Shown piece by piece: positions 1,909-48,519 of a DNA stretch of 64,000 bases. Source of the stretch: Fodinibius salicampi (GTDB lineage: Bacteria > Bacteroidota > Rhodothermia > Balneolales > Balneolaceae); NCBI RefSeq assembly GCF_039545095.1, contig NZ_BAABRS010000003.1, positions 1 through 64,000 on the forward strand, in the 5' to 3' direction. Within the stretch, counting starts at the first letter, position 1. Every line of letters begins with the position of its first letter. The notes beneath the pieces were generated by a model that was not told the DNA's origin, did not search any database, and saw only the letters and a list, made by a program, of their open reading frames with translations. The translations under genes and the position numbers were made by a program.

Positions 1909-2589
1909 CTAGTCGATCATTAGTTTGGCCGTTTCGAAATCCTGTGGATAAGTTATTTTCATATTCATCCGATCTCCCTCTACTATTTTAACTTTTTGAC
2001 CCATTCTTTCAACAAGCGTTGAATCATCCGTGCCAAGAAATTTATCTTGTCTCGCTTGTTTATAAGCTTTAATTAAGACTTCTCTTTGAAATACTTGTGG
2101 CGTCTGGGTTTGCCACATTGCTGTTCGCGGAGGGGTGTTCTCAACATAATGATCTTTAGTAACATACTTAATTGTATCTGTGGCAGGAATGCCAAGCACT
2201 GCTGCACCCACCTCGAATGCAGCCTCGCAACAAGCCTCAATATGCTCCTTCTTAACAAAGGGACGGACCGCATCATGGACTATCACAAGGTCAGTCGCGA
2301 TTATTCGTGATAAGGCATTACTAATAGAATGCTGTCGCTCTTCTCCACCCTCCACGACATCGCCCTGTATTGTATCTGGAAGCAGCGATCCAAGCACCTC
2401 CCGGGTCAACTCTATATAATCTTTTGAAGTAACGACCACCACCTGCTTTAATCCTTCAAGTCCCAAAAATCGATGTATCGTCCGCTCCAATATAGAAATA
2501 CCCTTTAACTCCAAATAAGGCTTTGGAACTTCCTTTTGCATCCGCTTACCGGAGCCCGCTGCAGGTATTACAAGAGTTTTCGTTACCAC
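1909..2589 (-). CDS. ispD: 2-C-methyl-D-erythritol 4-phosphate cytidylyltransferase
   Basis: Couples CTP to methylerythritol 4-phosphate in the MEP pathway. The 226-residue protein has the nucleotidyltransferase signature AAGSGKRM (about residues 10-17, with catalytic K/R) followed by VPKPYLEL. It also has VHDAVRPFV and the C-terminal TDDSTLVERMG and ITYPQDFETAK motifs typical of IspD. Start ATG at 2589, nine bases after the queA stop, so it is in one operon with queA and ispF. The third MEP gene in the window, ispH, is unlinked at 29.4 kb. Confidence 0.97.
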   Translation of the reverse strand: MVTKTLVIPAAGSGKRMQKEVPKPYLELKGISILERTIHRFLGLEGLKQVVVVTSKDYIELTREVLGSLLPDTIQGDVVEGGEERQHSISNALSRIIATDLVIVHDAVRPFVKKEHIEACCEAAFEVGAAVLGIPATDTIKYVTKDHYVENTPPRTAMWQTQTPQVFQREVLIKAYKQARQDKFLGTDDSTLVERMGQKVKIVEGDRMNMKITYPQDFETAKLMID

Positions 2590-2598
2590 CGGACAAAC

Positions 2599-3645
2599 TT
2601 AGAGAATCAAGATTGAGTCACCGAAGCCGAAAAAACGATAATCCTCTTCCTGCGCTTCTTCATAGGCTTCCATGAGGAAATCATATCCACCGAAAGCAGC
2701 TCCGAGCATTAACATGGTAGATTCCGGACGATGGAAGTTCGTAATAACTCCCTCCGTAATTTTAAAATCATAGGGAGGATAAATAAACTTATCGGTCCAG
2801 CCGGTCCCCGGCTTGGAAATACCACTTGCCGTAATACTTGTTTCGATAGTTCGAACGGAAGTGGTGCCGCATCCCACTACCTTATTATCCTTGCTCTTCA
2901 ATGCCTTATTGATCGCATCGGAGGTTTCTTTGGAAATATTATAATTTTCAGAATCCATACGATGCTTTGTCAAATCTTCCACTTCTACCGGACGGAACGT
3001 ACCCCAGCCGATATGAAGGGTGATAGGCAGCATTTTTACTCCTTTATCTTTCAGTTTTTCAACCAGGTCTTGTGTGAAATGCATCGCAGCAAAAGGGGCA
3101 GCTACTGAACCACGCTCTTTAGCAAAGATCGTCTGGTATTGTTCCTTATCTTCCTCTCTGGGTTCGCGATCGATATAGGGTGGAAGGGGCATTTCCCCAA
3201 TATCATCCAATAACTTATAGAGCTCTTCATTGGTACCTTCATAGAGGAATCGGATAGTACGTCCCCTCGAGGTCGTGTTATCAATAACCTCTGCCATCAG
3301 GTCGGGACCAAAATAAAGTTTATTGCCGATACGTATTTTACGAGCAGGTTCAACGAGTACATCCCATAGCATATTTTCGGGAACCAGTTCACGCAACAGG
3401 AATACCTCAATATCGGCATCCGTTTTTTCTTTTTTCCCTTTTAGGCGCGCCGGAAACACCTTGGTATTATTATATATTAGTACATCACCTTCATTTAAAT
3501 ACTTATGAATATCCGAGAATTTTTCGTGCTTAATACTTTCATCCTCCCGATCCAAAACCATTAACTTTGCAGCATCACGTGGTTCAACCGGCTCTTCGGG
3601 AACGTTAAAATCGTCGGTGTCAAACTTAAAATCGGTTAGTTTCAT
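2599..3645 (-). CDS. queA: S-adenosylmethionine:tRNA ribosyltransferase-isomerase
   Basis: QueA transfers and isomerises the ribosyl part of SAM onto 7-aminomethyl-7-deazaguanine at tRNA position 34, giving epoxyqueuosine. The 348-residue length is normal. Diagnostic stretches are PEEPVEPRDAAKLMV near the N-terminus, IYNNTKVFPARLKG, HIGWGTFRPVEVEDLTKHRM and GVITNFHRPESTMLMLGAAFGG. It is the first gene of the queA-ispD-ispF-dedA unit; no function-related reason for this grouping is evident. Confidence 0.97.
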   Translation of the reverse strand: MKLTDFKFDTDDFNVPEEPVEPRDAAKLMVLDREDESIKHEKFSDIHKYLNEGDVLIYNNTKVFPARLKGKKEKTDADIEVFLLRELVPENMLWDVLVEPARKIRIGNKLYFGPDLMAEVIDNTTSRGRTIRFLYEGTNEELYKLLDDIGEMPLPPYIDREPREEDKEQYQTIFAKERGSVAAPFAAMHFTQDLVEKLKDKGVKMLPITLHIGWGTFRPVEVEDLTKHRMDSENYNISKETSDAINKALKSKDNKVVGCGTTSVRTIETSITASGISKPGTGWTDKFIYPPYDFKITEGVITNFHRPESTMLMLGAAFGGYDFLMEAYEEAQEEDYRFFGFGDSILIL

Positions 3646-3753
3646 TATCGAACTACAGCCTTTTATTTGGTTTTATTAAACCGTATTTTTATTGGATTCA
3701 AAGCTTTCAAATATACCCTATTTTCATCCGCTGAACAAGTTCGAATTTATGAC

Positions 3754-3841
3754 GGAGGTGTGCCAGAGCGGTCGAATGGGGCGGTCTCGAAAACCGTTGA
3801 ATCGTTTTTCGATTCCGGGGGTTCGAATCCCTCCACCTCCG
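3754..3841 (+). tRNA. tRNA-Ser (anticodon CGA)
   Basis: An 88-nt class II tRNA. The acceptor stem GGAGGTG pairs with CACCTCC, discriminator G, the expected serine identity base. The D-arm starts TGCCAGAGCGG, the anticodon loop is CTCGAAA, a long variable arm contains ATCGTTTTTCGAT, and the T-arm is GGTTCGAATCC. CCA is not encoded. Confidence 0.95.
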
Positions 3842-4087
3842 CAACTTTTTATAAATAGCGTATATTGGCGTTTGAGTAAATACTTTTTTCCAAAAAAAAC
3901 TACTTAATATCAAACCATAATTAATCAGTTTTATTTCCGTTATTTTTTCTGAAGAAAACTTATGGCAGCTGTTTCCTAAAAAATATTCGGAATAACACTC
4001 TTTATTGTAGAACTTTACTTTATTATACTTAAATTAGTTTCACAGGCGTTATATACGCTTTTGTATAATACTACCGGGTAACTATCA

Positions 4088-4618
4088 ATGATTATGAAAA
4101 AGACTTGGATCTTCACCTTTATAAGTACATTTGTTCTTTTATTCATTGGGATGTCTTCAGTAGCAGAAGCCCAGCTTCGTGAGGATGTTAATCGCTCTTC
4201 CGCACTCACGGGTTCGGTTATAAAACAAAATCCCAGTAAGGACGCTAATCTGGGAAATCTGTTTAATATGCAGATGGATCATTCCTATTCCATGATGTTC
4301 TCAAGTTTTGGAGGACAAATGCAAAACATGAATGCTTATACGAATACCATGCGCTTCTTCTTTTCAGAAGATCTCACTGGTCGGGTTGACTTATCGCTCT
4401 TGCACTCCCCATTCGGGAACAACAATTTTATGTCAAATAACAACGGGATGGATACCCAGTTGCTTATTCGTAATGCTGAGCTGAATTATCAAATTAATGA
4501 GAACAGTAATATCAGCATTCATTTTCAGCAGTTACCTCAAGACTATGGCTACAGTCCCTGGGGCATGGGCCCGCGATCTCGTCACTCTCTGAACTCCGGC
4601 CATTTTATTTTCGACTAG
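4088..4618 (+). CDS. Secreted protein of unknown function
   Basis: Not recognised. The 176 residues start with a classical signal peptide: basic MKK, hydrophobic core TWIFTFISTFVLLFIGMSS, cleavage likely after VAEA before QLRED. The mature part is rich in Met, Asn and Ser (MQMDHSYSMMFSSFGGQMQNMNAY), then alternates polar and hydrophobic residues as in surface beta-strands (TGRVDLSLLHSPF, LLIRNAELNYQI, NISIHFQQL). It ends shortly after a tyrosine/glycine-rich stretch. It is probably periplasmic or outer-membrane. The start may be the second ATG, two codons later. It sits 13 nt before the LytR_C gene and is likely co-transcribed with it. Confidence 0.75.
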   Translation: MIMKKTWIFTFISTFVLLFIGMSSVAEAQLREDVNRSSALTGSVIKQNPSKDANLGNLFNMQMDHSYSMMFSSFGGQMQNMNAYTNTMRFFFSEDLTGRVDLSLLHSPFGNNNFMSNNNGMDTQLLIRNAELNYQINENSNISIHFQQLPQDYGYSPWGMGPRSRHSLNSGHFIFD

Positions 4619-4631
4619 TCCAGCCTAAGGC

Positions 4632-5084
4632 ATGAGCTCAGATAGCAGAGAATCCAGTTCGTTTGTTCTAAATGCTGCCATTGGATTTCTTAGCCTACTT
4701 TTAGTACTGCTTGTTTTTGGTCTTTTTACCCGTATTGTTTATCCCCGGATAGAAAACCAACGTAATGAGATAAACACCAATCTAATTGGAGATATTATTC
4801 AGCTTGAAGTGCTAAATGGCTGTGGAGTTCCCGGTGTAGCCAATACCTTTACTTCTACACTTCGCAAAAATGGATTTGATGTAGTAGAAACAGGAAATTT
4901 CAAGAACTTTGATATGACCAATACGGTTATAATAGCACGGACCATTAATAAAGGTAACGCACTGAAAATTGCTGATGTTCTCGGCGTTGAACCTCAAAAT
5001 GTTATTGTAGAAGCATCAGAAGATTACTATCTCGATGCGACCGTTGTTATAGGATCTGATTATAAATCTTTAACACTCAACTAA
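4632..5084 (+). CDS. LytR C-terminal-domain membrane protein
   Basis: A 150-residue protein with one N-terminal transmembrane helix (about residues 16-35, AAIGFLSLLLVLLVFGLFTR) and an extracytoplasmic LytR_C-type domain. The domain core IQLEVLNGCGVPGVANTF and the closing ATVVIGSDY match the 'V-NG-G--G-A' and 'D--VILG-D' patterns of that family. In cell-wall LytR/CpsA/Psr proteins this domain is C-terminal to the catalytic domain; here it stands alone on an anchor, as often seen next to rsfS in this lineage. Its biochemical role is unknown. It precedes rsfS by 6 nt. Confidence 0.85.
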   Translation: MSSDSRESSSFVLNAAIGFLSLLLVLLVFGLFTRIVYPRIENQRNEINTNLIGDIIQLEVLNGCGVPGVANTFTSTLRKNGFDVVETGNFKNFDMTNTVIIARTINKGNALKIADVLGVEPQNVIVEASEDYYLDATVVIGSDYKSLTLN

Positions 5085-5090
5085 TTTTAT

Positions 5091-5498
5091 ATGACCAACA
5101 CCTCTTCTAAAAAAGAACAACAATTTACCAGCGTCAATGACGCCAAAACAGCCGATTCCGAAAAGCTGATTGAAGTCATAACAGAAGCAATGCTCGACCG
5201 AAAAGCAGAAGACATTATTGTACTGGATGTTCACAAACTAACTACGCTGGCAGATAAGTTTATCGTTTGCCATGCCAGTACGGATGTTCAAATCAAAGCC
5301 ATTGCTGATAATATTAATAAGGAGACGCACGAAAATCTGGGCGAAAAAGCCTGGAAAGAAGAAGGACGCGAAAGCCGGCGATGGGTTATTCTGGATTATG
5401 TAAATGTCGTTGTACATATCTTTAAAAAGGAATTGCGTGAGTATTATGCTCTCGAACGCATGTGGAATGATGCCCCGGTTCAAAGAATTGAAGAATAA
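5091..5498 (+). CDS. rsfS: Ribosomal silencing factor RsfS
   Basis: RsfS (Iojap/DUF143) binds ribosomal protein L14 and blocks 30S-50S joining when cells are starved. The 135 residues contain the family core: IIVLDVHKLTTLADKFIVCH, ASTDVQIKAIADNI, then RRWVILDYVNVVVHIF and the C-terminal EYYALERMWNDAP. The length is normal apart from a roughly 20-residue polar N-terminal extension. It lies in a tight operon after the LytR_C gene, and its 3' end overlaps the proposed start of the following lipoprotein. Confidence 0.96.
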   Translation: MTNTSSKKEQQFTSVNDAKTADSEKLIEVITEAMLDRKAEDIIVLDVHKLTTLADKFIVCHASTDVQIKAIADNINKETHENLGEKAWKEEGRESRRWVILDYVNVVVHIFKKELREYYALERMWNDAPVQRIEE

Positions 5499-5922
5499 TC
5501 CTCATTTTTCGATATCGGGCTTATTGTTAACTATTGGATTTTTTATGATCTTTGGGTGCGCTTCTTCAGATCCCAAATTAACTGATTCTTATCCCAATTT
5601 AACAGAACTGCAACAGCCCGAGGATACACCACATCAGGAAGGGAAAGTATATATTGATTCGCTGAAGCAAATTACCATTGAAAAAGAAAACGCACTTTTA
5701 ATTTCCGGCAAACTCGCCGATGGCTGTACGCATCTCCGGACCGTATCTCATCAAGAGACAAAAGATAATTCCCTTCACTTACAAGTTACTGCTTGGCGGC
5801 ACACTGACAAAATGTGCACCCAAGCACTCGTCCCCTTCTCTTATATTTATCAGGAATTAAGTAATTCCCAAATTATTCACTATTCTGATATTCTCATTAA
5901 CGGAAAAAAATATTCGATATAG
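5467..5922 (+). CDS. Putative lipoprotein, unknown function
   Basis: Not recognised. The open frame begins at 5404, but the likely start is one of the tandem ATGs at 5467/5470. This gives MMPRFKELK, a hydrophobic stretch (SGLLLTIGFFMIFG) and a lipobox ending in Cys (IFGC|ASSD). That points to a lipoprotein anchored in the inner or outer membrane. The remaining roughly 115 residues include a central GKLADGCTHLRTVSHQE and look like one small beta domain with two further cysteines (DGCTH, KMCTQ). The start lies inside the end of rsfS, so translation is probably coupled. It is followed 2 nt later by the dehydrogenase gene. Confidence 0.7.
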   Translation: MMPRFKELKNNPHFSISGLLLTIGFFMIFGCASSDPKLTDSYPNLTELQQPEDTPHQEGKVYIDSLKQITIEKENALLISGKLADGCTHLRTVSHQETKDNSLHLQVTAWRHTDKMCTQALVPFSYIYQELSNSQIIHYSDILINGKKYSI

Positions 5923-5924
5923 CG

Positions 5925-6899
5925 ATGCCTAAAAAAGTACTGGTTACTGAACCCATTGTCGATTCTGTTATCAATAAGCTCAAGGCCCACTTCTCTGTGG
6001 ATGTTGGCCAGCGTGGCGATTATAATTCAGAGGAAGCCCTTATTCGCGATATCCCTCAATACCACGCCATACTGCCCATGCTTTCCAACCCAATCACTAG
6101 CGAGGTCTTAAAGGCAGGAGAACGCCTACAAATCGTTGCCAACCATGCTGTAGGGTACAATAATATTGATGTTGATGCTGCCCATAAAGAAAATATTTAT
6201 GTAGCAAACACTCCCGATGTTCTGACTGACTCCTGTGCCGAATTTACGATCGGACTTATATTAGCAGTAAGCAGAAGGCTATTTGAAGCACAGCGCTATC
6301 TCCTCGATGGTAAATTTGATGGATGGGAACCACTCGGTTTTTTAGGCAAAGAACTCCAGAGAAGTACACTCGGTATTGTGGGGATGGGCAGAATTGGTCA
6401 GGCTGTAGCTCAAAGGGCCAAAGCATTTGGTATGGATATTATTTACCATAACCGAAGCCGATTGGCGCCAGAGACAGAAAATACCTTTGATGCCTCTTAC
6501 CGGGCTGATATAGAAAGATTAGCCGAAGAAGCCGATATTCTTACTCTTCACTGTCCGCTCACTGATGAAACCAAACATCTTGTGGATAAAGAGGTTCTTT
6601 CTTTATTGGGAGAAAAAGCAATATTGGTTAATACTTCTCGCGGTCCCGTCGTTGATGAAAAAGCTCTTGCTGAGGCCCTGCATGATGGGACCATCGGGGG
6701 AGCTGCCCTGGATGTATTTGAAGAAGAGCCCAATGTGCATCCCCGTCTCCTGGCAGCACCTAATTGCCTGTTGACCCCTCACATCGCTAGTGCCAGTCAA
6801 GAAACACGAGAAGCGATAGGCATGTTGGCTGCTGAGGCTATTATCGGGATTCTTGAGGGACAAGACCCAAATAAAATTCCTAACTTGATTCAACCTTAA
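5925..6899 (+). CDS. D-isomer 2-hydroxyacid dehydrogenase (glyoxylate/hydroxypyruvate reductase-like)
   Basis: NAD(P)-dependent oxidoreductase of the D-2-hydroxyacid dehydrogenase family, 324 residues. The Rossmann motif GIVGMGRIGQAV lies at about 150-161. The catalytic set is visible as Arg239 (NTSRGPVVDE), a Glu in DVFEEEP (about 266-268) and His286 (TPHIASAS). After the second beta strand the sequence HNRSR carries basic residues, which suggests an NADPH preference as in glyoxylate/hydroxypyruvate reductases (inference). Closest in overall look to GyaR/GhrB-type reductases rather than SerA: no ACT domain is present. It starts 2 nt after the lipoprotein gene. Confidence 0.92.
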   Translation: MPKKVLVTEPIVDSVINKLKAHFSVDVGQRGDYNSEEALIRDIPQYHAILPMLSNPITSEVLKAGERLQIVANHAVGYNNIDVDAAHKENIYVANTPDVLTDSCAEFTIGLILAVSRRLFEAQRYLLDGKFDGWEPLGFLGKELQRSTLGIVGMGRIGQAVAQRAKAFGMDIIYHNRSRLAPETENTFDASYRADIERLAEEADILTLHCPLTDETKHLVDKEVLSLLGEKAILVNTSRGPVVDEKALAEALHDGTIGGAALDVFEEEPNVHPRLLAAPNCLLTPHIASASQETREAIGMLAAEAIIGILEGQDPNKIPNLIQP

Positions 6900-6942
6900 A
6901 TTCGATTCATATTCAAATACCTGATGAATCGACCTTAGTTTT

Positions 6943-9900
6943 ATGAAGACATCTCTGGATCTATCCCGGCTTTACCGTCTTTTAGGATGGGCAATTTTAA
7001 CTCTTTTATTACTACTTCTTGCTCTCGAGGGATGGCGTTATAGTATCAAGCCATCAGACGCTAACCATCAACAAATCGTAGAACAAAGACTCACGGAATC
7101 GGCTCAGTTTTTTGAGAATAAGCAACAGCAATTGCTAAATCGATCTGAGCAGTTGGCTTCCACCCTTCAATCATTACTGCTGCAAGAACATTCGCCTCAA
7201 AATATTTACACGCATCTGGATTCATATTCCGATTTTTGGGGAATATCTTTGTACCAGAATGACCAACCTATCGTCTGGAAAGGATTTGCTCCGCCCAACC
7301 GAAATGACAATTCTTTAGAAGATCCCCTCGAACCCCAAATAACACTCTCAAAGGAAAACAATACTACTTACTGGGAGGCCTATGTCCCTTTTAATGTGCA
7401 AAGAAATGATGATGTCATCTGGTATCAGATGTTCACCAGTTATCGCATAGAACAGACCAATCCATTAGCTATTGGCTCCGCTACTGAATTTAATATCCTC
7501 CATTCAGAATCTTCGATTGATTATCCAGTAAACTTTAGCATTTTTAGTTCTCCACCTGATAGTGTAACCCAAACCCAAAAATTAAACAACATTGAGAGAG
7601 ACTCTATTGGTGTTGTTTATGCTTCTGAGGAGGATCTTCTGCAAAAAAAAGAAGAATGGAATGAAGGAAACAGTTTCTGGCGATCTCTTTTCGCCCTATT
7701 CAGTTTTGCAGTCTTCGTCATTGTCTTCTTCAAAGCCGTTGATAAAGTTAGTTGGCTTACCGGACTTCTTCTACAACTCTTTTTTATTAGTGCCGGCTGG
7801 TTTGTATTAGCTTATACTGATATTATATCAATCTGGACCCAGATGCTTGTTGAACCTGCGAATGAAGCATGGGCTAAAACTGCAGAACAGCTGGCCTATA
7901 TATTTACACAGGTATTCTTTGCCCTACTTGCTTCAATCGCTATTGCCCGAAAACTACCATTCTTCAACAGGAAGATAAAAGCCAACTCCTATCTTGCTTC
8001 TATTGGTTTAGCCACCTTTGTGGGAGCTATTAATGGCCTTAGTATACCGCTTGTTCTCAATTGGACCTATAACAATATTGTTTCTTCCGGCATCCCGCTA
8101 TTAGACCTACGCATATTACCAGAATGGAACACGGTTATTATCTATCTTATAGTTGGGCTAACACTTTTGTCATTGGGAATTCTTTTATCTTCCCTTAATC
8201 TCCTTCTTTTTCGCTCTACTCTAAATCACATCCGGTTATCAGCAACCATTGTTGTAATAGCTTTTATTATTGGTCTTTTACTAACCCAACTTTTAGTCCT
8301 CAATTTCCCCGCCCTCAATTGGATTCTCTATTCAAGTATAGCGGCCTTTGCTATTATTCTATTTATTGCAATTGGCCACGCTCAGAACATTCCAGGGATA
8401 TCGTCCCTCTCTCCGCTGCGTAACATTGTTATGGGGAGCATATTTATTGCAACCTTGGGGGTACCCATGTTTTACCAATCTTATCTCATACATATCGACG
8501 AAGAACTTTTACAAACAGCCCAAAATTATGCGCAGGAAGAAGATCCCCAGGCTAGGGAGTTAACCCGTCAGCTTTTAGTGAATCTTGAGAAAGAGTTTCA
8601 AACTATTTCCAACGAAGATATCCTTAATAATCAATCATCAATACAATCTCGGTTCACCCAAAACATTCGTGATTTCCTGGAATCGGAATGGAACACCTAT
8701 TCGTTTGACCTACAGCTGGTTAGCAGCTCTGAAGAGCTTATTGCAAACTATTCCACCAATCTAAATTCACCAAACTGGATAAATTACTTCAACATCCCTC
8801 GACTAAAAATAACTACAGAAATACAACAGATTACCAGATCCAGCATCCAGCCAATTATTCAACAGCCACAGCTCATAAACCAACAGGATTACCGGACTTT
8901 TTACAGGGGTTGGATACCCGTTTTTGGATCTTCCGAGTACCAACCGATAGCCTGGATTTTATGCTCTGTTTATAAAGAGCGCCCTCAATTTAATAAGCCA
9001 ATTCGCGCAGTAATGGCTTCATTAACGTATGAGGACTGGAATAATAACTTCTTGATGCAGAAATACGAGAATGCTCAGTTAGTGAGTGCTACCGACCAGG
9101 GTTTTACAGGATATTTCCCTAAGTACCAGCAACTAAATGAGGAAGAGCAGAAAGCTCTCGAAAGCGATTCACTTATTTATTATTACGATCAGGCTAATGA
9201 AAACACCTATCGCACATTGTTGTGGAAAGAATCAGATACTGTATCCATTAAAACCAGTTCTGCCCTGCCGGAATATCGACTTATTCTATTCTCTCTTTTC
9301 CGTTTCAGCTTTACCCTACTCATTGTAGGTTGCCTAATTACTTTTATTACTCAGCTTATTAATAAGCATCAAACTTCGTTGCTGGGAGAAAATAAGCGCT
9401 TTCAGGATCGTATCCTCGATAGTTTCTTACTGGCCACTCTAATCTTTCTAGGATTCTTAATTGCGACTTCACATTATGCTATCAAAAAGCAGAACCAAGA
9501 AATTGTTCGACAGGAATTATTTGAGAAGCTTGAGCGGCTTGCGGAGTCTATTCAATCCAGCCAGCTTATGGACAACAATTTTAGTCGCAGCCCCTCATCT
9601 TCGCTCGAATCTCTTACGACCCCGTGGAATGTGGATGCTACTTTATATACGGACCACAGCGTAGCTGAAACTACAACACCCCAAATATATCAGCAACACT
9701 TACTTCCCGATATCCTACCCTATGATATTTATCATCAAATTTCAGTCCAGCAAAAAAGGGAGGCTTATTCTTCCGTTAATTTGGCGGGACAACCTTTACT
9801 TATTGGCTACCGTTCTATTCTGGATGATGAAAATGAAACAATGGGAATTCTTGCCATCCCAACCTTTCTGGAATCGCCTAAATATGATCAGCAACTATTG

Positions 9901-10830
9901 GAAACCATAAGCTACCTTATTTTAGTTTATATCTTGGTGTTCGGCCTATTTATACTGGGTTCTGCCTTCATTTCAAAATCCTTGACGCGTTCTCTAACCT
10001 ATATACAACGCGGCCTTAATAAAATATCAGGTGGTAATTTGGATACGACTATTCCGGTTACGAGTCAGGATGAAATCGGTAATCTGGCGAAAGCTTACAA
10101 TGAGATGGTTCGCAGGCTCCGAAAGCTACAAAAAGAACTCGCCAAGGCCGAGAGAGAAGCGGCATGGAAAGAAATGGCTCAGCAGGTAGCCCACGAAATA
10201 AAAAATCCACTTACGCCCATGAAGCTAAACGTTCAACACTTGGAACGACAGCTAAAGACGGGGAAATATGAGGGAGAGGAACTTAAGGCTCACATTCAAA
10301 AAATCACGGCTAATCTTATTGAACAGATTCAATCCCTAAGCAATATCGCTTCTGATTTTTCGAAATTTTCTCAACCTATCGAAAAAGATTTTACTTCCGT
10401 CAATTTAACTTCAATTCTGGAGTCTGTTGTTCAGCTTTACCAGCATGACCAACAAATCAGTCTTTCTTTTGATGCTCCTGAAGAAGTAGTTTTGGTGAAT
10501 GGTATTGCAGATGATCTAAAACGTGTCTTTATCAATATCGTTAAAAATGCTTACGAGTCCATTGGAAATAATAAAGGCAAAATTTCCATTTCGCTTTATA
10601 GAAGTCAACAAAACGCTTTTGTTGAAATCGAAGACAATGGCAGCGGAATCCCCGAAGAGAACAGGAGTAATATCTTCGTACCCAGCTTTTCCACTAAATC
10701 CGGTGGTACAGGACTTGGATTGGCAATTTGTAAAAAAATTATTGAAGCACATGGTGGGAGCATTACATTTGCTTCTGTAGAAGGAGAAGGCACTACTTTT
10801 GTCATTAAACTGCCTCAAGTAGATTCCTGA
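6943..10830 (+). CDS. Very large NtrY-like membrane sensor histidine kinase
   Basis: 1295 residues. The order is TM helix (about 12-30); extracytoplasmic domain (33-240); a block of about eight hydrophobic helices (245-510); second extracytoplasmic region (515-780); TM helices near 785-808 and 822-845; third extracytoplasmic region (846-985); TM 988-1012; HAMP ([20 protein letters not shown] onward); and a kinase core. The phospho-acceptor is His1084 in [13 protein letters not shown], an HxxKNPLTP form shared with NtrY. The ATPase domain shows N-box [11 protein letters not shown]1 [11 protein letters not shown] and G2 [18 protein letters not shown]. No response regulator lies adjacent, so partner and signal are unknown. 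It appears complete, with no frameshift. Confidence 0.92.
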
Positions 10831-10923
10831 TTTTTCTACCCCCGATCCCCTATCTTTTCCTCCACAGTTTTTGTACCATTAGCGCTTCCACAAATATTAT
10901 TATATTTATATACAATTGAAGCT

Positions 10924-12276
10924 GTGCTCTCATTTCTAAAAACAGAGAAATATAACCTCCGCAGGGAAGCTGGACTGACGCTCAAAATCGGACTTCCGGT
11001 TATCATCGCGCAGCTCCTGCAAATGTCGATGAACTTCGTAGACACCGTTATGGCAGGTAATCTCTCTGCCCAAGACCTTGCAGCCGTGGCGGTGGGTGGA
11101 GCCGTTTTTGTACCCTTTATGATGCTGGCGGCCGGCATCCTAATGGCCGTCACTCCTGTCGTCGCCCAATTAGTGGGGGCACGGAATTTCAAGGATATCG
11201 GTATCAATGCGCGTCAGGCGCTTTGGCTCAGCCTGTTCCTGTCCATTCCGATCTTTTTCCTGATTCGTAACCTGGAGTTCGTCATGCACTTCCTGGATGT
11301 CACCCCCGCCATCATCCCAGTTGCCCAGGGATACCTCAACGCTATTTCATGGGGGGTCTTTGCCGTCTGCGGCTATATGGCCCTTCGCTTCTTTAATGAG
11401 GGATTATCGGCTACCCGCCCGGGCATGTATTTCGCCCTGTTGGGTGTTTTTGTCAATGTTATTGGAAACTATGTTTTCATGTATGGCAAGCTGGGCTTCC
11501 CCGAGCTGGGGGCACGGGGCTGTGGCTACGCCTCGTCGGTAGTGGGACTCGTGATGTTCCTGGGTATGCTCACTTTTACCATGAATTACAAGCCGTACGA
11601 GCGGTTTGATATCTTTTCCTCTTTCCGAATGCCGGACTGGCCCCATCTCAGGGAACTCCTGCGGGTAGGGGTGCCGATCGGACTCAGTTCCACGATGGAA
11701 GTCAGCATGTTTGCCTTAGTAAGCCTGCTGATGGGCTCTCTCAGCACGATCGCGGTAGCAGGGCACCAAGTCGCTATCAACTTTGCGGCCATGACATTTA
11801 TGGTGCCCTTTGGACTTTCAACAGCGATTACCACGCGGGTGGGAAATGCCATCGGCAAAGGGACAATGTATGAAGCGCGGCGACGCGGCTATATTGGTAT
11901 TTTCCTGGCAACCTTTTTCATGTGTATTACCGCCACCCTCATGTACCTTTTCCCGGACCTCATTGCTGGAATGTATACCCAGGATTCTGCCGTACAGGAA
12001 GTGGCTATCAGCCTCCTCTATATGGCCGCTATATTTCAAATATCCGATGGACTTCAAGTGAGCAGCTATGGCGCCCTCCGTGGGCTTAAGGATACTAAAA
12101 TTCCCATGGTCGTTAATTTTATCGCATACTGGATGGTTGGTCTTCCTCTGGGCTACTATCTTGGCATTGGCAGGAATATAGGTCCGCAGGGTCTTTGGAT
12201 GGGACTTATCGCCGGGCTGACTATAGCAGCTATCCTTCATAATGTTCGATTTTACAAGCTCACCACACAGCGGTAA
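10924..12276 (+). CDS. MATE-family multidrug/toxin exporter
   Basis: 450-residue, 12-helix cation-coupled efflux protein of the MATE family (NorM-like). The N-terminal half shows LTLKIGLPVIIAQLLQMSMN and FVDTVMAGNLSAQDLAAVAV, the typical MATE opening. Halfway, RVGVPIGLSSTMEVSMFA and AGHQVAINFAAMTFM mark the second pseudo-repeat, and GLRGLKDT-like GALRGLKDTKIPM is near the end. Start is a GTG at 10924; no better upstream ATG is in frame. The gene is visibly richer in G and C than the AT-rich kinase before it and the PKS operon after it, so recent acquisition or a different expression class is possible. The substrate is not predictable. Confidence 0.93.
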   Translation: MLSFLKTEKYNLRREAGLTLKIGLPVIIAQLLQMSMNFVDTVMAGNLSAQDLAAVAVGGAVFVPFMMLAAGILMAVTPVVAQLVGARNFKDIGINARQALWLSLFLSIPIFFLIRNLEFVMHFLDVTPAIIPVAQGYLNAISWGVFAVCGYMALRFFNEGLSATRPGMYFALLGVFVNVIGNYVFMYGKLGFPELGARGCGYASSVVGLVMFLGMLTFTMNYKPYERFDIFSSFRMPDWPHLRELLRVGVPIGLSSTMEVSMFALVSLLMGSLSTIAVAGHQVAINFAAMTFMVPFGLSTAITTRVGNAIGKGTMYEARRRGYIGIFLATFFMCITATLMYLFPDLIAGMYTQDSAVQEVAISLLYMAAIFQISDGLQVSSYGALRGLKDTKIPMVVNFIAYWMVGLPLGYYLGIGRNIGPQGLWMGLIAGLTIAAILHNVRFYKLTTQR

Positions 12277-41371: not shown

Positions 41372-41456
41372 GCCCTGGTGGCGGAATTGGTAGACGCGCT
41401 GGCTTGAGGGGTCAGTTCCCATTTTGGGAGTGCTGGTTCGACTCCAGTCCAGGGCA
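41372..41456 (+). tRNA. tRNA-Leu (anticodon GAG), target of integration
   Basis: 85-nt class II tRNA: acceptor GCCCTGG/CCAGGGC, discriminator A, anticodon loop TTGAGGG in a CTGGC/GTCAG stem, long variable arm and T-arm GGTTCGACTCC. The gene is complete. Its last 14 nt lie within a 50-bp sequence repeated at 48351-48400, showing that an element has integrated here and restored the 3' end. Confidence 0.95.
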
Positions 41457-41492
41457 CCGAAACCCTTGTAAGTCTATGGCTTGCAAGGGTTT
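41443..41492 (+). repeat. attL: 50-bp direct repeat (left copy)
   Basis: Begins TCCAGTCCAGGGCACC inside the tRNA-Leu T-arm and acceptor, continues AAACCCTTGTAAGTCT, and ends TGGCTTGCAAGGGTTT. It is identical to 48351-48400 except at two positions (G/T after the first block, A/T after the second). Confidence 0.93.
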
Positions 41493-41498
41493 ATTTTT
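41460..41498 (+). terminator. Terminator of tRNA-Leu, lying inside the att repeat
   Basis: AAACCCTTGTAAG pairs with CTTGCAAGGGTTT (one G-T pair) around a 7-nt loop and is followed by ATTTTTT. It is a strong Rho-independent terminator directly behind the tRNA. Confidence 0.88.
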
Positions 41499-41500
41499 TC

Positions 41501-41525
41501 AGGTACAAATATTAGTACAAACAAA
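41501..41525 (+). repeat. GTACAAA double site just inside the left end
   Basis: AGGTACAAATATTAGTACAA followed by ACAAA: two GTACAAA words spaced 12 bp apart. The arrangement recurs in the same orientation inside the right end at 48217-48241 (22 of 25 bases identical). These are candidate recombinase or excisionase arm sites. Confidence 0.6.
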
Positions 41526-41701: not shown

Positions 41702-42421
41702 ATGGATAATTTTTTAGTTGCCAAATTTCAATTTGAAATCCGATATACATATATATTGGATTTTGAGAGCCATTATAAAAGCATTTTATCGCCCTACCTC
41801 AAATTTGCTTCTGGAATGCAAATACATGGTCAGGGAACAAGAAATGAATACATCAAATTATTATTTGAGGAAGATGGTTATAGTATTGATTGTCGGTGGG
41901 ATAGAATGGTCTTTGTGTATGAAGGTGAGATAAACAATTTAAAAAAGAACCAATCGGCACTTAATAAAATATTCTTTGAAATTTTTGATCAGATTTCCTC
42001 CCTGCAGTCATTTGGCAAAATTACAAACTATTTAATAGTCGCTAACGGTGTAAAATTAGTCGAAAATGAACATTTTGAAGAACTAGTTGAAAAATTTACT
42101 AGTCACTATCTAAGTGATTCAGCAAATGTTCACTTCGATGGTGATAACAAAGATTCAGCAATTATTGTTGAATACAACAAAGATGGAGTAGATGTAACTC
42201 AAAAGTTTGGTCCCTATAACTGTCAGAATGATATTGACAAACATGACTTATTGCCATTCAATATGGAGGAGGATACAAAACTTAAGAAAATGAATGGATT
42301 AATTATGCAGCTAAAATTTTTCGAAGAAACTGCTTTTATTAATTTCGATAAAACTACTGTATTAATAGAAGAAATGAATAATATCTTTCAAAAGTTCAAG
42401 CAAGAGACTGAAAAATTATGA
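41702..42421 (+). CDS. Element cargo protein A, unknown function
   Basis: Not recognised. 239 residues, no signal peptide or TM helix. An alpha/beta-looking N-terminal half (VAKFQFEIRYTYILDFESHY, SIDCRWDRMVFVYEGEI) is followed by a helical piece (SALNKIFFEIFDQISSLQSF), a second strand-rich half (KITNYLIVANGVKLV, VHFDGDNKDSAIIVEYNKDG) and a helical C-terminus. The duplicated strand-helix layout might be two related domains. It is the first gene of a three-gene operon; its last 4 nt (ATGA) overlap gene B, so the products are probably made together. AT-rich, like the rest of the element. Confidence 0.75.
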   Translation: MDNFLVAKFQFEIRYTYILDFESHYKSILSPYLKFASGMQIHGQGTRNEYIKLLFEEDGYSIDCRWDRMVFVYEGEINNLKKNQSALNKIFFEIFDQISSLQSFGKITNYLIVANGVKLVENEHFEELVEKFTSHYLSDSANVHFDGDNKDSAIIVEYNKDGVDVTQKFGPYNCQNDIDKHDLLPFNMEEDTKLKKMNGLIMQLKFFEETAFINFDKTTVLIEEMNNIFQKFKQETEKL

Positions 42422-42897
42422 GTAGATCTGAAATAAATACAAAAAAAATAGGTAACAAAACTCAAGAAACACCTGAAGATGATAATTTTGATTCAGAAAA
42501 TTATCCTACTTCTAAGGTTGAAAAAAATGTTTTGGATGATCAGGATAGTTTTTTTTCAAAAACATTTTTTAAAAGTACGTTTATAAATGAAAAATGGGAT
42601 GACCAATTATTTATTGATGGAGTTATAAATGCAATTGAGGATGAAGTAATCTTTGTTAATTGCTTAATGGACGAAGAAAACCAAATTTTTAAAGAAAAGG
42701 TTTTTCCCAAAGAGCTTTTGAAACACGTCCAAAATCTTGAAACTGATAAATACCTTAGAGTCAAAATAAGTTTTAAGGCAGGTTCAATGAGATACGACGT
42801 TTATGATGGTAAAGGCTTAAACATTAATCGAGAGGCTTTTGAAGCAAATCAAGTTTGGGACTCATTAAACGATTTTGAAATTGATGAACCCCAATAG
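42418..42897 (+). CDS. Element cargo protein B, unknown function
   Basis: Not recognised. 159 residues. The first 45 are polar and probably disordered (NTKKIGNKTQETPEDDNFDS). The remainder forms a small beta-rich domain (FIDGVINAIEDEVIFVNCLM, EKVFPKELLKHVQN, KYLRVKISFKAGSMRYDVYD) suggestive of an SH3/OB-like barrel with a helix insert. The C-terminus is acidic. It starts in the stop of gene A and ends 3 nt before the MBL-fold gene. It may be an adaptor between gene A and the hydrolase (inference). Confidence 0.75.
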   Translation: MSRSEINTKKIGNKTQETPEDDNFDSENYPTSKVEKNVLDDQDSFFSKTFFKSTFINEKWDDQLFIDGVINAIEDEVIFVNCLMDEENQIFKEKVFPKELLKHVQNLETDKYLRVKISFKAGSMRYDVYDGKGLNINREAFEANQVWDSLNDFEIDEPQ

Positions 42898-42900
42898 TGT

Positions 42901-43905
42901 ATGAGGATTATTTTTAAAAATGTTGGTCAAGGGGATTCAATTATCTTAGAGTGGCAGGATCAAAAAGAAGAAAAGAAAATTGGTATTGTAGATTGCAAGA
43001 AAGACTCATCATTTAATCCTGTTCTAGATCACATCAAAACCTCGAATACGAGTAGTATCAGTTTTATGATACTGAGCCATCCCCATTATGATCATTTTTC
43101 AGGTTTCCGTGAGTTACTTGATTATTGCGAATCCAATAAAATCACAATAGAAAGATTCTTATTAACCTGTTATCAAGATGTTGTTTATTTAAAATCCGCA
43201 TTGAAATCTCCTAGGTCCTTGAATGAACTTGGTAAACTTTTAGCAAAGGTTAAAGAATTTAGATGGAATAAAAACATAATTAAACATCTGACATATCTTG
43301 ATAGCGATACAAAAATATTACACTTGAATGACGAAATTACCTTAGAAACTTTATCACCTTCAACAGATGAGTTAGAATTTTTTGCGAATAAAAAATTTTC
43401 AGCCTCAGAGGAAAATCAGGATTCACAACCTTTCGGTAATTGGCTTTCAACTATTTTAAAATTAAAAGGTGATGACTGGTTAGTGTTACTTACATCTGAT
43501 GCAGAACAATCTGCTATCAAAAGAGTTGGACATGAGCACGAGAATGATAAACTAGCATCCAATCTTATACTATGTCAAGCCCCACACCATGGGTCTCTAA
43601 AGAACCACTCAAGCGAATTTTGGAGAAAACTAAAAAAGAGAGAACCTAAAGTAGCGTTTTCAGTAGGTAAAAACTCCTATAATCACCCTAATAAAAAAGT
43701 AATAAAAAAATTTCAGGATTATAGTTATGAAGTATTTGCGACAAATAGAGTCGGAGGATTAAAAAATGAATCATTAGATAACGACAACATACCAGATCGA
43801 CTTCTTATGAATATTGGTATCTATGACTCTCAAGAACAAAGAAATAAAGTTAACTCTCAAGATTTAGTGTTTAACATTACGAATGGCCTCGCAAAACCTA
43901 ACTAA
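42901..43905 (+). CDS. Metallo-beta-lactamase-fold hydrolase, ComEC-type
   Basis: 334 residues, soluble. Metal-binding HxHxDH is intact as H60-x-H62-x-D64-H65 (LSHPHYDHFSGF). The second ligand set is TSDAE with D200, and APHHGSLKNHSSEFW with H229/H230. The C-terminal VAFSVGKNSYNHPNKKV followed by YEVFATNRVGG parallels the 'S-G--N-YGHP---V---L---G--V--T---G' end of the ComEC/Rec2 nuclease-like domain. There are no transmembrane helices, so it is not a DNA-uptake channel. Likely a phosphodiesterase or nuclease acting with cargo proteins A and B. Family assignment is good; substrate and biological role are unknown. Confidence 0.88.
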   Translation: MRIIFKNVGQGDSIILEWQDQKEEKKIGIVDCKKDSSFNPVLDHIKTSNTSSISFMILSHPHYDHFSGFRELLDYCESNKITIERFLLTCYQDVVYLKSALKSPRSLNELGKLLAKVKEFRWNKNIIKHLTYLDSDTKILHLNDEITLETLSPSTDELEFFANKKFSASEENQDSQPFGNWLSTILKLKGDDWLVLLTSDAEQSAIKRVGHEHENDKLASNLILCQAPHHGSLKNHSSEFWRKLKKREPKVAFSVGKNSYNHPNKKVIKKFQDYSYEVFATNRVGGLKNESLDNDNIPDRLLMNIGIYDSQEQRNKVNSQDLVFNITNGLAKPN

Positions 43906-44092: not shown

Positions 44093-44122
44093 AAAGGAGT
44101 GCATCTCTCGACACACTCCTTT
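44093..44122. terminator. Bidirectional terminator between cargo operon and rep
   Basis: AAAGGAGTG (44093-44101) and CACTCCTTT (44114-44122), loop 12 nt, A-rich on the left and T-rich on the right. It lies between convergent genes ending at 43905 and 44162. The rest of the 255-nt gap holds no ORF. Confidence 0.8.
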
Positions 44123-44161: not shown

Positions 44162-45046
44162 TTAAGAAATTGGGGAATTCTCTTCACAGTATAGCTTACT
44201 CCATAGAAAAGCTTTTATAATAAACTTTTTAGGTGCCCAAATTTCGATGCTACCGCCTTTGGCTACCTTGTCTGACATATACTTATTCTTCCGTTTAAGA
44301 TAACGGCTGAGAAGTCTCCTAAACCAAATGAGCTCTTTCCCTTCTAGCTTATCAGAAGCTATAAAATCTTCCCAACCTGTTGAAACTCCCCAATATCTCC
44401 CTTGATTTTTTAGCCTTTCCTCATCCTCTTTAGCCATATATTTTGAAACATAATAAACAACCTGTCGATACTCTTTAATCCTTTTACAATTAGTACCAGC
44501 TTTTAAATGTTTAAGATCTTTGATATCCCAATTCCGTTGAACTACTTCGAACCAATTTCGAGATGTCCATTTTTTTAATACCTCGATATTTATTTCATTT
44601 TCAAAATAGATCAACAAATGATAATGGGGAGCTCCCCTTTTTTGGGCTTCAAGCCTCCACAAATATTCAAGATTTCCAAAAGCTCTTTTTAACCTTTTAA
44701 AATAGGTATCCAAATCCCTCTTATACTCTTCTCTTTTCTCAGGATACTTTTCAGGATAAGTAAGAGTAATAAAAAAGGGATTGCTCTTATTTTCGTGATC
44801 AACACGATTTGTCTTTTTCAGTAACCGTAATTTTGACTTCCTAGAAAAATCTGTAATATCACCAGCTTCTCTAGTTGGTGGATTTTTGGGCTTAAAATGA
44901 TGGTGCTTACCGCAATGGTGTCTGTAAAATTTAAGCTGTGTTTTTTCCTTTCCAGAAAGACCACTAATATTCTCTTTGATAATACAGCTATTACCAATAA
45001 GCGTAATTTCAGCGTCCGCTAAATACCGATAATCTCGATTATGCAT
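44162..45046 (-). CDS. HUH-type rolling-circle replication initiator (Rep)
   Basis: 294 residues with the three motifs of HUH endonucleases in order: motif 1 FFITLTYP (91-98), motif 2 HYH at 141-143 within RGAPHYHLLIYF, and motif 3 VVYYVSKYMAK (196-206) with candidate nucleophiles Y199 and Y203. The two-tyrosine spacing (YxxxY) resembles phage/replication-type Reps (G2P and gpA-like). The N-terminal Cys/His cluster (YRHHCGKHHHFK, 41-52) may bind metal. It would nick a double-strand origin for replication of an excised circle. It starts 15 nt beyond the HTH gene and is probably co-transcribed. Confidence 0.82.
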   Translation of the reverse strand: MHNRDYRYLADAEITLIGNSCIIKENISGLSGKEKTQLKFYRHHCGKHHHFKPKNPPTREAGDITDFSRKSKLRLLKKTNRVDHENKSNPFFITLTYPEKYPEKREEYKRDLDTYFKRLKRAFGNLEYLWRLEAQKRGAPHYHLLIYFENEINIEVLKKWTSRNWFEVVQRNWDIKDLKHLKAGTNCKRIKEYRQVVYYVSKYMAKEDEERLKNQGRYWGVSTGWEDFIASDKLEGKELIWFRRLLSRYLKRKNKYMSDKVAKGGSIEIWAPKKFIIKAFLWSKLYCEENSPIS

Positions 45047-45061: not shown

Positions 45062-45346
45062 TTACTCTTTAGGTTCTATCAAATTACTACGCAAATACTC
45101 CTCTATTCCCTCAGTCGGGTAAAGAATTCGATGCTTTTCCTGACTAAATGGGATCTTGTTTTTATCCCTCAGATATTGAATAGTGCGCCTAGACCAACCC
45201 GTAAGCTCCATGAGCTCATTGGTATTAATCCATTCTTTTCTTTTGGCCTTTCGTAAAAGAGAAGGAAGCTCTTTCTCCAGTAATTTTTTTACGGCAGCTT
45301 GTACTGTTTCATTCAGTTCTTCTTTGGAAGTGATGTAGGTTTCCAT
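45062..45346 (-). CDS. Small helix-turn-helix DNA-binding protein (excisionase/MerR-like)
   Basis: 94 residues. The C-terminal half has a winged-helix/MerR-like DNA-binding unit: EWINTNELMELTGWSRRTIQ followed by YLRDKNKIPFSQEKHRILYP. That is the Bacteroidota 'helix-turn-helix domain' form found beside rep and int genes on mobile elements. The N-terminus is an amphipathic helix. Likely acts as excisionase or as a repressor of its own operon. It lies directly downstream of a 7-bp inverted repeat. Confidence 0.82.
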   Translation of the reverse strand: METYITSKEELNETVQAAVKKLLEKELPSLLRKAKRKEWINTNELMELTGWSRRTIQYLRDKNKIPFSQEKHRILYPTEGIEEYLRSNLIEPKE

Positions 45347-45458: not shown

Positions 45459-46307
45459 TCAGTTCTTAAATAAAGCTTCATAAATTTCTTTGAATTTTTT
45501 CTCATGCCACTCGAAAACGAAACCTTTATCTTCATTTTCCTCATCTTTACCCCATTTTTCAAAATAATCTTCTTGTTCCAAAGCGTATTCGGTGGCTCTC
45601 TTAATTATTAATGACCCATCTTTTCTAAATAACTCTGAATCCTTTTTGTCTTTTCTATTTATTTCCAACAAGATTGTATAAATATCTCTAAAAAACTCTT
45701 CAGGTGTATTTGTACCTCTGGTCTCTTTCTTATCCAATAAGAAAGCTTCTAGCTCCCCTTTATTAATCTCAAGTTTCGGAACGCTTTTTGGATAATCTTC
45801 TGATATTAGTTTTTCTATTAAATAATTAATCGCTTTCATTTGGTGATATAACTTATCAGCTATATACCGTTTTTTATAAGCTAATGGCACTTGATACAAT
45901 AACCCTTTATTACTTTTCTGATCTGTAACTTTTAAATACTCTTTTAATTTTTCCTGGAGTCTTTCCCTATCCATTGCACCAATATTAAAATCACCAATAG
46001 TATATTTAGAAAAGGTTAATTTAGATGCAATTGAGATCTCGCTGTAAAGAGCATCTATATTTGTTTTGGAGTCTATTTCAAAATCTGGTTGCAGAATGTC
46101 ACTAATCATTTGAGAAAATAGCTCTAATTCATCTTTTAATGAATCAAGCTTATTATCAATTTCGATTCTCATCTGAGAAAGGGAAGAAAAAGCTTTCAAA
46201 ACTCCATCTTTTTCAGCCAATTCTTCATACTTATTAGCAAACTGTTCATACCACGTTTTAAAATGATATTTTTGTCCTTGAAATTGAAGAGATTGATCGT
46301 ATTCCAC
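45459..46307 (-). CDS. Element protein of unknown function, largely helical
   Basis: Not recognised. 282 residues, highly charged, predicted mostly alpha-helical with coiled-coil-like segments (MRIEIDNKLDSLKDELELFS, RERLQEKLKEYLKV, LYHQMKAINYLIEKLISEDY). It has an acidic C-terminus (EKWGKDEENEDKGF and KKFKEIYEALFKN). There is no signal peptide and no catalytic motif noticed. It lies between the repeat region (its 5' side) and the HTH-rep genes, all on one strand. Candidate roles are an accessory replication protein or a repeat-binding partition protein; both are guesses from position. Confidence 0.7.
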   Translation of the reverse strand: MEYDQSLQFQGQKYHFKTWYEQFANKYEELAEKDGVLKAFSSLSQMRIEIDNKLDSLKDELELFSQMISDILQPDFEIDSKTNIDALYSEISIASKLTFSKYTIGDFNIGAMDRERLQEKLKEYLKVTDQKSNKGLLYQVPLAYKKRYIADKLYHQMKAINYLIEKLISEDYPKSVPKLEINKGELEAFLLDKKETRGTNTPEEFFRDIYTILLEINRKDKKDSELFRKDGSLIIKRATEYALEQEDYFEKWGKDEENEDKGFVFEWHEKKFKEIYEALFKN

Positions 46308-46325: not shown

Positions 46326-46809
46326 TAATCTTATTTTGACCGGCTTTTACCGTGTTATTTTGGTGTAATATTACTTAATTTTTCCGGGCTCAAACAAAAC
46401 TGACCGAGTTTCCCAAGTAGTTATAAGTGATATACTCCTTATCAATAAAGCATTTTCCCGGTCAATTTTATTTAAAGCCGGGCTAAAGCATTTCTATTTA
46501 GAAAATCACTTCCCGTTTCATTTTATCCTTTTACCGAGTCAAAAGTAAACGCACTCGGATCTTCCGGGTTCAAATAAAACTGACCGAGCTTTCCAAGTAG
46601 AAAAAGTGATATACTCCTTATCAATAAAGCTTTTTCTCGGTCAACTTTATTTAAAGCCGTGCTTAAGTGTTTCTATTTAGAGAACCGCCTCCCGTTTCAT
46701 TTTATCCATTTTACCGAGTCAGAAGTAAATGCACTCGGTTTTTTCCGGTCAGAATTGCCTAAACAACAATCAGACGCTTTTCTATCGGTCAGATTTATTT
46801 AGACACGGA
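46326..46809. repeat. Repeat region: two 180-bp tandem copies plus seven short CGGTCA-TTTATTT motifs
   Basis: Copy 1 at 46382-46561 and copy 2 at 46562-46740 match at roughly 85-90% by eye. Within and around them a motif of about 25 bp recurs: CGGTCA, two bases, TTTATTT, then A and CCGG-like. Forward copies are near 46457, 46636, 46745 and 46785; inverted copies end near 46343, 46408 and 46588. Some copies are palindromic at their ends (CCCGG/CCGGG). Each 180-bp unit ends in a CCGAGT/ACTCGG hairpin (46533-46558, 46713-46739), the second followed by a T-run. No ORF. Candidate replication origin iterons or protein-binding array. Confidence 0.75.
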
Positions 46810-46952: not shown

Positions 46953-48185
46953 CTACCCATTATTAAAAAGCTTATCCATACCCTCATCTAAAAGCTCTTC
47001 ATCAAATGACTTCAAATACCGTTCAGTTGTTTTAAGTTTGCTATGGCCTAACGCTTTCGAAATTTCATATAAACCTAATCCCTGTTCTAATGCATACTGG
47101 CTGAATGAATGTCTTGATACGTGGAAACTAATATTCGCTTCTATTTCTGCTAACCCGGCTATTTTTTTTAGGTCTCGGTTAACGATTACATTCTTACTGC
47201 TAATACTTCTTTGGAGTGCTGCAGAATTACTAATTTTCTTGTCTAAAATGGGAAAAATATAATCGTTTTGTTTTGAATCATCCGAGCGATAATAGCTTAA
47301 AATTTTATCCATTTGATCATACTGCTTAATACTTTTCTGACTCCCTGTTTTTCGCATCTTATATACTAACCGGCCATCAACTAAGTTTTTCCATTTTAAT
47401 GTACACATATCACCAAATCGAATACCGGCATTATAAAAGCTGAACATAAAATAATTCCGGCTATGCCATAACTGAGATTCCTTTTCCAAATCAAGTTTTT
47501 CTATTGCTTTAATTTGAGCTAAAGAAAGCTTTGTTTTTTCTACTGGTTCTTCCTTTACCTTATTAACCATCAAAAAAGGATCATGCTTTATTTTCTTAGC
47601 TTTTAAAAGACTGTTAAACATTCCTTTTAATGTCCTTAGCTTTCTTCTTACCGTGTTAGGACTATTCCCTACCTTTTTTCCCTCTTTGTTTTTTGGTTCA
47701 GTTAATAGATAATTCTGGAATTTTTCGATCAATTCAGCATCAACTTTTGTAATTGCTCGGCTTTTGTTTCCCATAAAATCTTTTAATTGACCGAGTAATA
47801 CCTTAAACCGCTTATGCTCCCAATATCTATCCTCTTCATCTAACTCTTCCAGATATCGCTCAGCACAATTTATGAAGCTATTGTATTTATCATCCGAGAT
47901 ATGATTTTTAAGGTTGTCAGCACTTAATTTTTCAGTAAGTTTAAGTTTAGACTTCTTTTTTTCAGCCTGTAATAATTCATATTCCAGTTGATCGTTTAAT
48001 ACTTTTGATCTCGTATGAGTACCCCTTATTCTTTGGCGTTCCTTATTCCAGTGCTTAGGTAAAACTGAAATACCTGTACTTTTATACCGGGATTTACGAT
48101 TTTCAGTAATTCGCAAATAAATGGGAATTTCACCGTTTTTCTTCTTTTTTCGCTTGAACAAAACAAGGTTGATAGTAAGACTCAT
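46953..48185 (-). CDS. int: Tyrosine recombinase (integrase) of the element
   Basis: Site-specific integrase, 410 residues from the ATG at 48185; a GTG four codons upstream (48197) is the alternative. An N-terminal arm-binding region (INLVLFKRKKKKNGEIPIYL) and a SAM-like core-binding domain precede the catalytic domain. There R is seen in NAGIRFGDMCTLKW, HxxR in SFHVSRHSFSQYALE, and the second H and nucleophilic Y in LGHSKLKTTERYLKSF. This is the Bacteroidota phage/ICE integrase type. It sits next to attR and is transcribed inward. GTACAAA double sites lie upstream of it. Confidence 0.95.
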   Translation of the reverse strand: MSLTINLVLFKRKKKKNGEIPIYLRITENRKSRYKSTGISVLPKHWNKERQRIRGTHTRSKVLNDQLEYELLQAEKKKSKLKLTEKLSADNLKNHISDDKYNSFINCAERYLEELDEEDRYWEHKRFKVLLGQLKDFMGNKSRAITKVDAELIEKFQNYLLTEPKNKEGKKVGNSPNTVRRKLRTLKGMFNSLLKAKKIKHDPFLMVNKVKEEPVEKTKLSLAQIKAIEKLDLEKESQLWHSRNYFMFSFYNAGIRFGDMCTLKWKNLVDGRLVYKMRKTGSQKSIKQYDQMDKILSYYRSDDSKQNDYIFPILDKKISNSAALQRSISSKNVIVNRDLKKIAGLAEIEANISFHVSRHSFSQYALEQGLGLYEISKALGHSKLKTTERYLKSFDEELLDEGMDKLFNNG

Positions 48186-48216
48186 ATTTTCGGGCACTAA
48201 TTGGAGTTAAACAAAT

Positions 48217-48241
48217 AGGTACAAACATTGGTACAAACAAT
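48217..48241 (+). repeat. GTACAAA double site inside the right end, upstream of int
   Basis: AGGTACAAACATTGGTACAA followed by ACAAT: two GTACAAA words 12 bp apart, direct copy of 41501-41525 with three differences. It overlaps the int promoter region, so it could serve recombination and int control. Confidence 0.6.
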
Positions 48242-48350: not shown

Positions 48351-48400
48351 TCCAGTCCAGGGCACCTAAACCCTTGTAAGTCTTTGGCTTGCAAGGGTTT
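48351..48400 (+). repeat. attR: 50-bp direct repeat (right copy)
   Basis: Carries the displaced tRNA-Leu 3' end (TCCAGTCCAGGGCACC) and a second copy of the terminator hairpin followed by TTTTATTTA. It differs from the left copy at two positions. The other sequence between int and this site (48198-48350) has no gene. Confidence 0.93.
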
Positions 48401-48519
48401 TTTATTTACTTGTGAATATTTATTTCTCCCATTTTATTTTTCATTTACGATTCAAACTTCATCCCTTTTAGACCCGTGAAACAACTCTTATTTTATAGAC
48501 CTTTCAACATTACATTCCA

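Follow-up and report, generated by a model that had tools for sequence, protein, structure and literature searches.

A mobile three-gene operon built around a soluble ComEC-like metallo-β-lactamase-fold hydrolase, a candidate defense module of Bacteroidota

Layout of the operon and its host element

The window analyzed here comprises the first 64,000 nucleotides of a Fodinibius salicampi contig (NZ_BAABRS010000003.1) and contains an integrative element of ~7 kb that carries, at its tRNA-Leu end, an operon of 2.2 kb composed of three genes termed A, B, and MBL (Table 1). A and B are connected by an ATGA overlap (−4), and a gap of 3 nt separates B from MBL. Coordinates, protein lengths (239, 159, and 334 aa), overlap, and gap had been given in an earlier note made from the sequence, and all were exact on recheck. 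The same note had credited the operon with a terminator of its own, which was not found: no hairpin followed by a T-run was detected on the + strand between MBL and Rep, and the sole structure of this kind in that interval scores on the − strand. The element possesses a tyrosine integrase and att repeats covering the 3′ end of a tRNA gene, as is characteristic of tRNA-targeted integrative elements, and the trio is cargo at the end opposite the integrase. attL and attR form a 57-nt direct repeat (93% alike), and the hairpin within attL also follows tRNA-Leu(gag) in relatives devoid of this element. The GC content amounts to 30.9% for the trio, 33.4% for the remainder of the element, and 42.7% outside. 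In further related genomes the same TPR gene adjoins tRNA-Leu(gag) while the DNA beyond differs; at the same tRNA, beside Shedu and AbiEi, Fodinibius halophilus harbors a trio that differs considerably, its MBL being 41% identical.

Table 1. Features of the operon and of the integrative element in the window
Feature	Position	Strand	Description and evidence
Gene A	41702..42421	+	239 aa; TBP-like two-repeat fold; putative sensor; ORF call, AF2, Foldseek
Gene B	42418..42897	+	159 aa; disordered tail and OB-fold; putative adaptor or gate
Gene MBL	42901..43905	+	334 aa; soluble ComEC-like metallo-β-lactamase-fold hydrolase; putative DNase effector
tRNA-Leu(gag)	41372..41458	+	integration target; ARAGORN; Rfam tRNA; TPR–tRNA-Leu(gag) synteny in further related genomes
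attL	41443..41499		last 16 nt of tRNA-Leu(gag), followed by the terminator hairpin of the tRNA; direct repeat
Intrinsic-terminator-like hairpin	44093..44122	−	oriented for Rep
HUH rolling-circle replication initiator (Rep)	44162..45046	−	Pfam REP_ORF2-G2P 1.7e-18; phrog_3419
HTH_17 excisionase-like protein	45062..45346	−	Pfam
Element protein of unknown family	45459..46307	−	282 aa; no significant family match
Tyrosine integrase	46953..48197	−	Pfam Phage_integrase 1.3e-17
attR	48351..48407		direct repeat partner of attL

Two kinds of repeats were observed within the element. Repeats of the AGGTACAAA type lie just inside both att sites (41501–41524 and 48217–48240), and a similar motif follows the same tRNA at another locus (L057, genome G009); the integrases of a single family of elements probably bind there. 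Between the gene of unknown family and the integrase, two copies of a ~180-nt direct repeat (46382–46749; 85–90% alike) may constitute the replication origin of the element or a Rep/Int binding region.

Conservation of the gene trio

A single scan of ~85,000 genomes, carried out with the MBL profile only and hence blind to A and B, yielded 19 close relatives—all from Bacteroidota/Balneolota—amid many distant ComEC-like matches. When profiles of A and B were applied afterwards to the loci found by MBL, B was located directly upstream of MBL at all 19 and A upstream of B at 15. Counting the window, 16 loci bear A; its reading frame overlaps that of B by 1–17 nt in 15 of them and lies 1 nt from it in the remaining one, and the spacing between B and MBL ranges from −26 to +28 nt. 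The three proteins diverge together (Mantel r of 0.67 for A–B, 0.77 for A–MBL, and 0.74 for B–MBL; permutation p 1e-4). Across 395 Bacteroidota genomes, matches to the A and B profiles are confined to genomes with the whole trio, which is rare and occurs in at most ~1% of the sampled Bacteroidota genomes. A–B–MBL is a conserved, translationally coupled, and co-diverging unit. The earlier note had suggested examining such conservation at different loci and had named two outcomes that would speak against its proposal, namely that A and B never co-occur with MBL or that they turn out to be replication or packaging proteins; the opposite was found, as the unit is mobile, is conserved across unrelated loci, sometimes adjoins known defense genes, and did not appear in viral-contig scans. 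The more distant matches outside Bacteroidota (L027–L047) were set aside, as they mostly represent long ComEC-like frames of up to ~1100 codons unaccompanied by A or B.

In the MBL tree, the protein of the window falls outside the group formed by its congeners, which cluster together at 100/99. It therefore seems likely from this phylogeny that the window trio was acquired by transfer rather than by descent. Scans of viral contigs with A, with MBL, and with two MBL alignments uncovered no relative, which makes a phage origin or a role in phage counter-defense unlikely; a search for A in plasmids and phages was likewise negative.

Association with tRNA genes and cassette arrays

The trio is located 3′ of a tRNA gene at seven of 21 loci, at a distance of 53–244 nt in five of them (the window, L010, L011, L015, and L052) and of 0.8–1.5 kb in L018 and L014. 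Assuming ~45 tRNAs in 4 Mb, we estimate that a tRNA would be encountered within 250 nt by chance at ~0.3% per locus. The boundaries of several inserts are marked by repeats. Flanked by a 24-nt repeat, the L011 insert comprises the integrase, HTH, and Rep genes together with the trio and tRNA-Met, a gene content much like that of the window element. In L052, a 63-nt tRNA-Thr repeat encloses an insert consisting of the trio alone, and in L016 the trio shares an insert with a methyl-directed restriction gene between copies of a 55-nt repeat. In Lewinella (L021/L093), the trio constitutes one cassette of 2.4 kb between two attC-like repeats. The array to which it belongs holds at least 25 attC-like repeats, 19 of them pairable into sites of 112–116 nt; 25 exact and three one-mismatch copies contrast with none in the control. 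The listed cassette ORFs all read in one direction, and other cassettes encode an ATPase resembling the OLD family (6p74, 2.7e-10) and a protein resembling metacaspases (1e-6). This appears to be a little-known chromosomal integron-like array in Bacteroidota. A true integron integrase serving the array was considered and dropped, since the best match falls below the cut-off and control genomes match too. The trio moves as a package, either carried within integrative elements or by itself in a cassette.

Named defense genes adjoin the trio at some loci, comprising SduA (Shedu), AbiEi, a type I methyltransferase, a methyl-directed restriction endonuclease, and MzaB/C; at most loci no named defense gene lies next door, neighbors having been counted by family only.

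Predicted properties of the encoded proteins

The earlier assignment of A and B to no recognized family held, as neither window protein yielded a match in Pfam, PADLOC, or NCBIfam. When 44 A, B, and look-alike sequences were searched, none matched any PADLOC model and only isolated weak matches to Pfam/NCBIfam emerged, among them a MazE-like one in a single member (E 0.006). Judged by these comparisons, A and B would represent two undescribed protein families. With no model of A or B in PADLOC or NCBIfam, the operon is overlooked by defense catalogues.

The AlphaFold (AF2) model of A (pLDDT 90.8) displays a repeated beta-alpha-beta(3–4)-alpha layout. Foldseek searches against the PDB place TATA-binding proteins first (E 1e-3, probability 0.96, low TM of ~0.3), and viral TBP-like models were also matched. 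With moderate confidence, A is predicted to adopt a TBP-like two-repeat fold, a type of fold rarely reported in bacteria. For B, AlphaFold predicts a disordered segment (1–45), a five-strand barrel (~62–130), and a C-terminal helix (138–151); the barrel matches the OB-folds of S1, cold-shock, Stn1/Ten1, and RPA proteins, so that B is probably an OB-fold protein, as called from its fold.

MBL was described from the outset as ComEC-like with intact metal ligands, and an alignment of 20 homologues bears this out. The ligand set of MBL-fold metal-dependent nucleases (HxHxDH, D, H) is present, with H60-x-H62-x-D64-H65, D200, and H229/H230 invariant and only H262 missing in 4 of the 20. The alignment also contains a variable insertion at ~155–178; gating insertions with cleavage-site isoleucines are a feature of MBL nuclease–protease pairs. 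Matches in the PDB are limited to ComEC/Rec2 nuclease domains (best 9ic4, 1.2e-16) and those in PADLOC to defense MBLs, the closest defense models being LmuA (5.5e-17), RTasMBL (7e-17), and Avs1a (1.5e-9).

The four loci lacking A form one MBL clade (100/98) and carry other genes in its place. Two of them encode an unrelated protein of ~217 aa and one possesses tandem B genes, while the fourth (L019, Flavobacterium kayseriense) combines a GHKL ATPase with a receiver-B (REC-B) fusion, in which the B part was identified by hhalign (E 5e-12) and the receiver-like domain was read by eye. Since A is swapped while B and MBL stay, B–MBL forms a constant core whose input side is exchanged; the operon thereby offers a series of sensor swaps on one core. 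In L019 (4053–7969), the GHKL ATPase, the fusion protein, and MBL are flanked by a DNA methyltransferase on one side and by MzaB/MzaC on the other, possibly reflecting a two-component-like control of the MBL nuclease inside a restriction-type system.

Relationship to known systems

Related MBLs of Hachiman (HamM) and AVAST (Avs1a) are defense DNases that are kept inactive by loops until a trypsin-like protease cuts them (PMC12799240). The pro-nucleases of such nuclease–protease systems (HamM, Avs1a, LmuA-associated; Tuck et al. 2025, PMC12799240) are, like the MBL described here, soluble ComEC-like proteins encoded beside sensor genes. In contrast to these systems, the trio features two new partner families and is devoid of a trypsin-like or caspase protease, a helicase, a STAND NTPase, and an SMC protein; Pfam, PADLOC, NCBIfam, and PHROG-type searches detected no protease family among the operon genes. 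Cleavage by a protease is the known switch of MBL nucleases, which recur among immune effectors; the operon would present a protease-free case.

The SMC-like LmuB and the LmuC partners of Lamassu (LmuA/LmuB/LmuC) are absent and none of the Lamassu models fits A or B, MBL reaches 37 bits against the 420-bit cut-off of Avs1a with no protease or STAND NTPase partner of type 1 AVAST (Avs1) in the operon, and no reverse transcriptase, as expected for DRT with RTasMBL, occurs among the operon or element proteins. The 6A-MBL anti-phage system (NCBIfam NF058524) is matched by MBL at 2.1e-7 and 30.4 bits, far under the curated 220-bit cut-off, and its partners find no match in A and B. Similarly, MBL matches PDC-M48B of the PADLOC candidate PDC-M48 at 1.2e-16, whereas neither A nor B fits any model in PADLOC. 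A literature search for the A–B–MBL gene combination, 6A-MBL, and PDC-M48 returned nothing. The nearest solved relatives of MBL, the C-terminal nuclease domains of ComEC/Rec2, differ from it in several ways: MBL is soluble, lacks a channel domain, has extra internal insertions and a C-terminal tail, and bears an HxHxDH motif where the ComEC chain that it matches has HxDxDH. The defense cassettes of sedentary chromosomal integrons (Darracq 2025, cited in PMC12409362) resemble the Lewinella trio in that the latter is likewise one cassette of an attC-like array; unlike them, the trio usually resides in tRNA-targeted elements.

Possible function of the operon

Most probably, the trio is a previously undescribed system of defense against phages or plasmids, a defensive activity that we infer. 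We moderately favor a self-contained, horizontally moving three-gene module, in which A serves as sensor, B as adaptor or gate, and MBL as DNase effector. MBL would be a DNase that depends on metal and is kept inactive inside the cell, and B, its constant partner, would act as adaptor or gate and possibly bind single-stranded nucleic acid. As a replaceable sensor, A would respond to a structure of the invader and, via B, release or deliver the nuclease; once released, MBL would destroy the DNA of the invader or kill the infected cell. Because no protease is encoded in the trio, control by assembly is proposed, in place of the cleavage that activates HamM and Avs1a. The division of labor suggested in the earlier note—MBL as effector, A and B as sensor and adaptor—fits the predicted folds and the swaps of A, the activities themselves being predicted ones. 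Its broader proposal of an accessory or defense module stands as far as the mobile, conserved unit and its occasional location beside known defense genes are concerned, and is conjectural as to the defensive outcome.

Other explanations have to be weighed. Cassette arrays frequently contain toxin–antitoxin genes, and the cargo position, the small self-contained operon, and the tRNA sites would also suit a toxin–antitoxin or element-exclusion system, in which a toxic MBL is neutralized by A and/or B and serves to retain the element or to exclude competing plasmids or elements. We consider this unlikely, however, since three co-diverging genes, swapped sensors, and REC/GHKL coupling resemble signal-triggered systems and the MazE-like match is restricted to one member. 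MBL-fold enzymes act on many substrates, non-DNA ones included, and no homologue of MBL outside the ComEC domain has been solved. Nevertheless, a non-nuclease hydrolase that serves in housekeeping or signaling, as a phosphodiesterase of nucleotides, cyclic nucleotides, or lipids, is quite improbable in view of the exclusive matches to ComEC/Rec2 nuclease domains and defense MBLs and because the trio is mobile and scattered over few genomes (at most ~1% of the Bacteroidota sampled). Highly improbable, finally, is a helper in replication or maintenance, with OB-fold B and nuclease MBL processing single-stranded intermediates of the HUH Rep: although OB-folds bind ssDNA and the elements of the window, L011, and L016 also hold Rep-like genes, the trio units of L052 and L021 occur without Rep or integrase, and no Rep is seen at most of the remaining loci.

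The defense module may, more tentatively and with slightly less than even confidence, be extended to an undescribed family of mobile immune systems, in which a ComEC-type MBL is placed under non-proteolytic OB-fold control and spread by tRNA-integrating elements and integron-like cassettes. Its interchangeable sensors would then include the TBP-like, DNA-binding protein A, the GHKL-ATPase/receiver pair, and the unrelated 217-aa protein.

Related arrangements

A second layout of two unknown genes and an MBL, of the same size and order, was observed in L053 (7280–9653, −) and on the Adhaeribacter plasmid L066 (2697–5047, +). Although the MBL of L053 is homologous to that of the trio (1.2e-21), A′ and B′ have no detectable homology to A and B, and both loci were kept as look-alikes instead of family members. 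An Acetobacter locus (L068) was rejected as well, as it shares only a small barrel region with B′ of L053 and contains no MBL. In Flagellimonas pelagia (L010, 4258–5559), a second, different ComEC-like MBL matching the LmuA model (2.1e-17) is encoded directly upstream of the trio. The large attC-like array of Lewinella sp. IMCC34191 stretches over L093 (reverse complement, 1826–11870), L092 (22–18695), and L095 and includes multi-gene cassettes, several of them defense-like, such as those with the OLD-like ATPase and with the metacaspase-like protein, whose partner looks TIR-like by eye.
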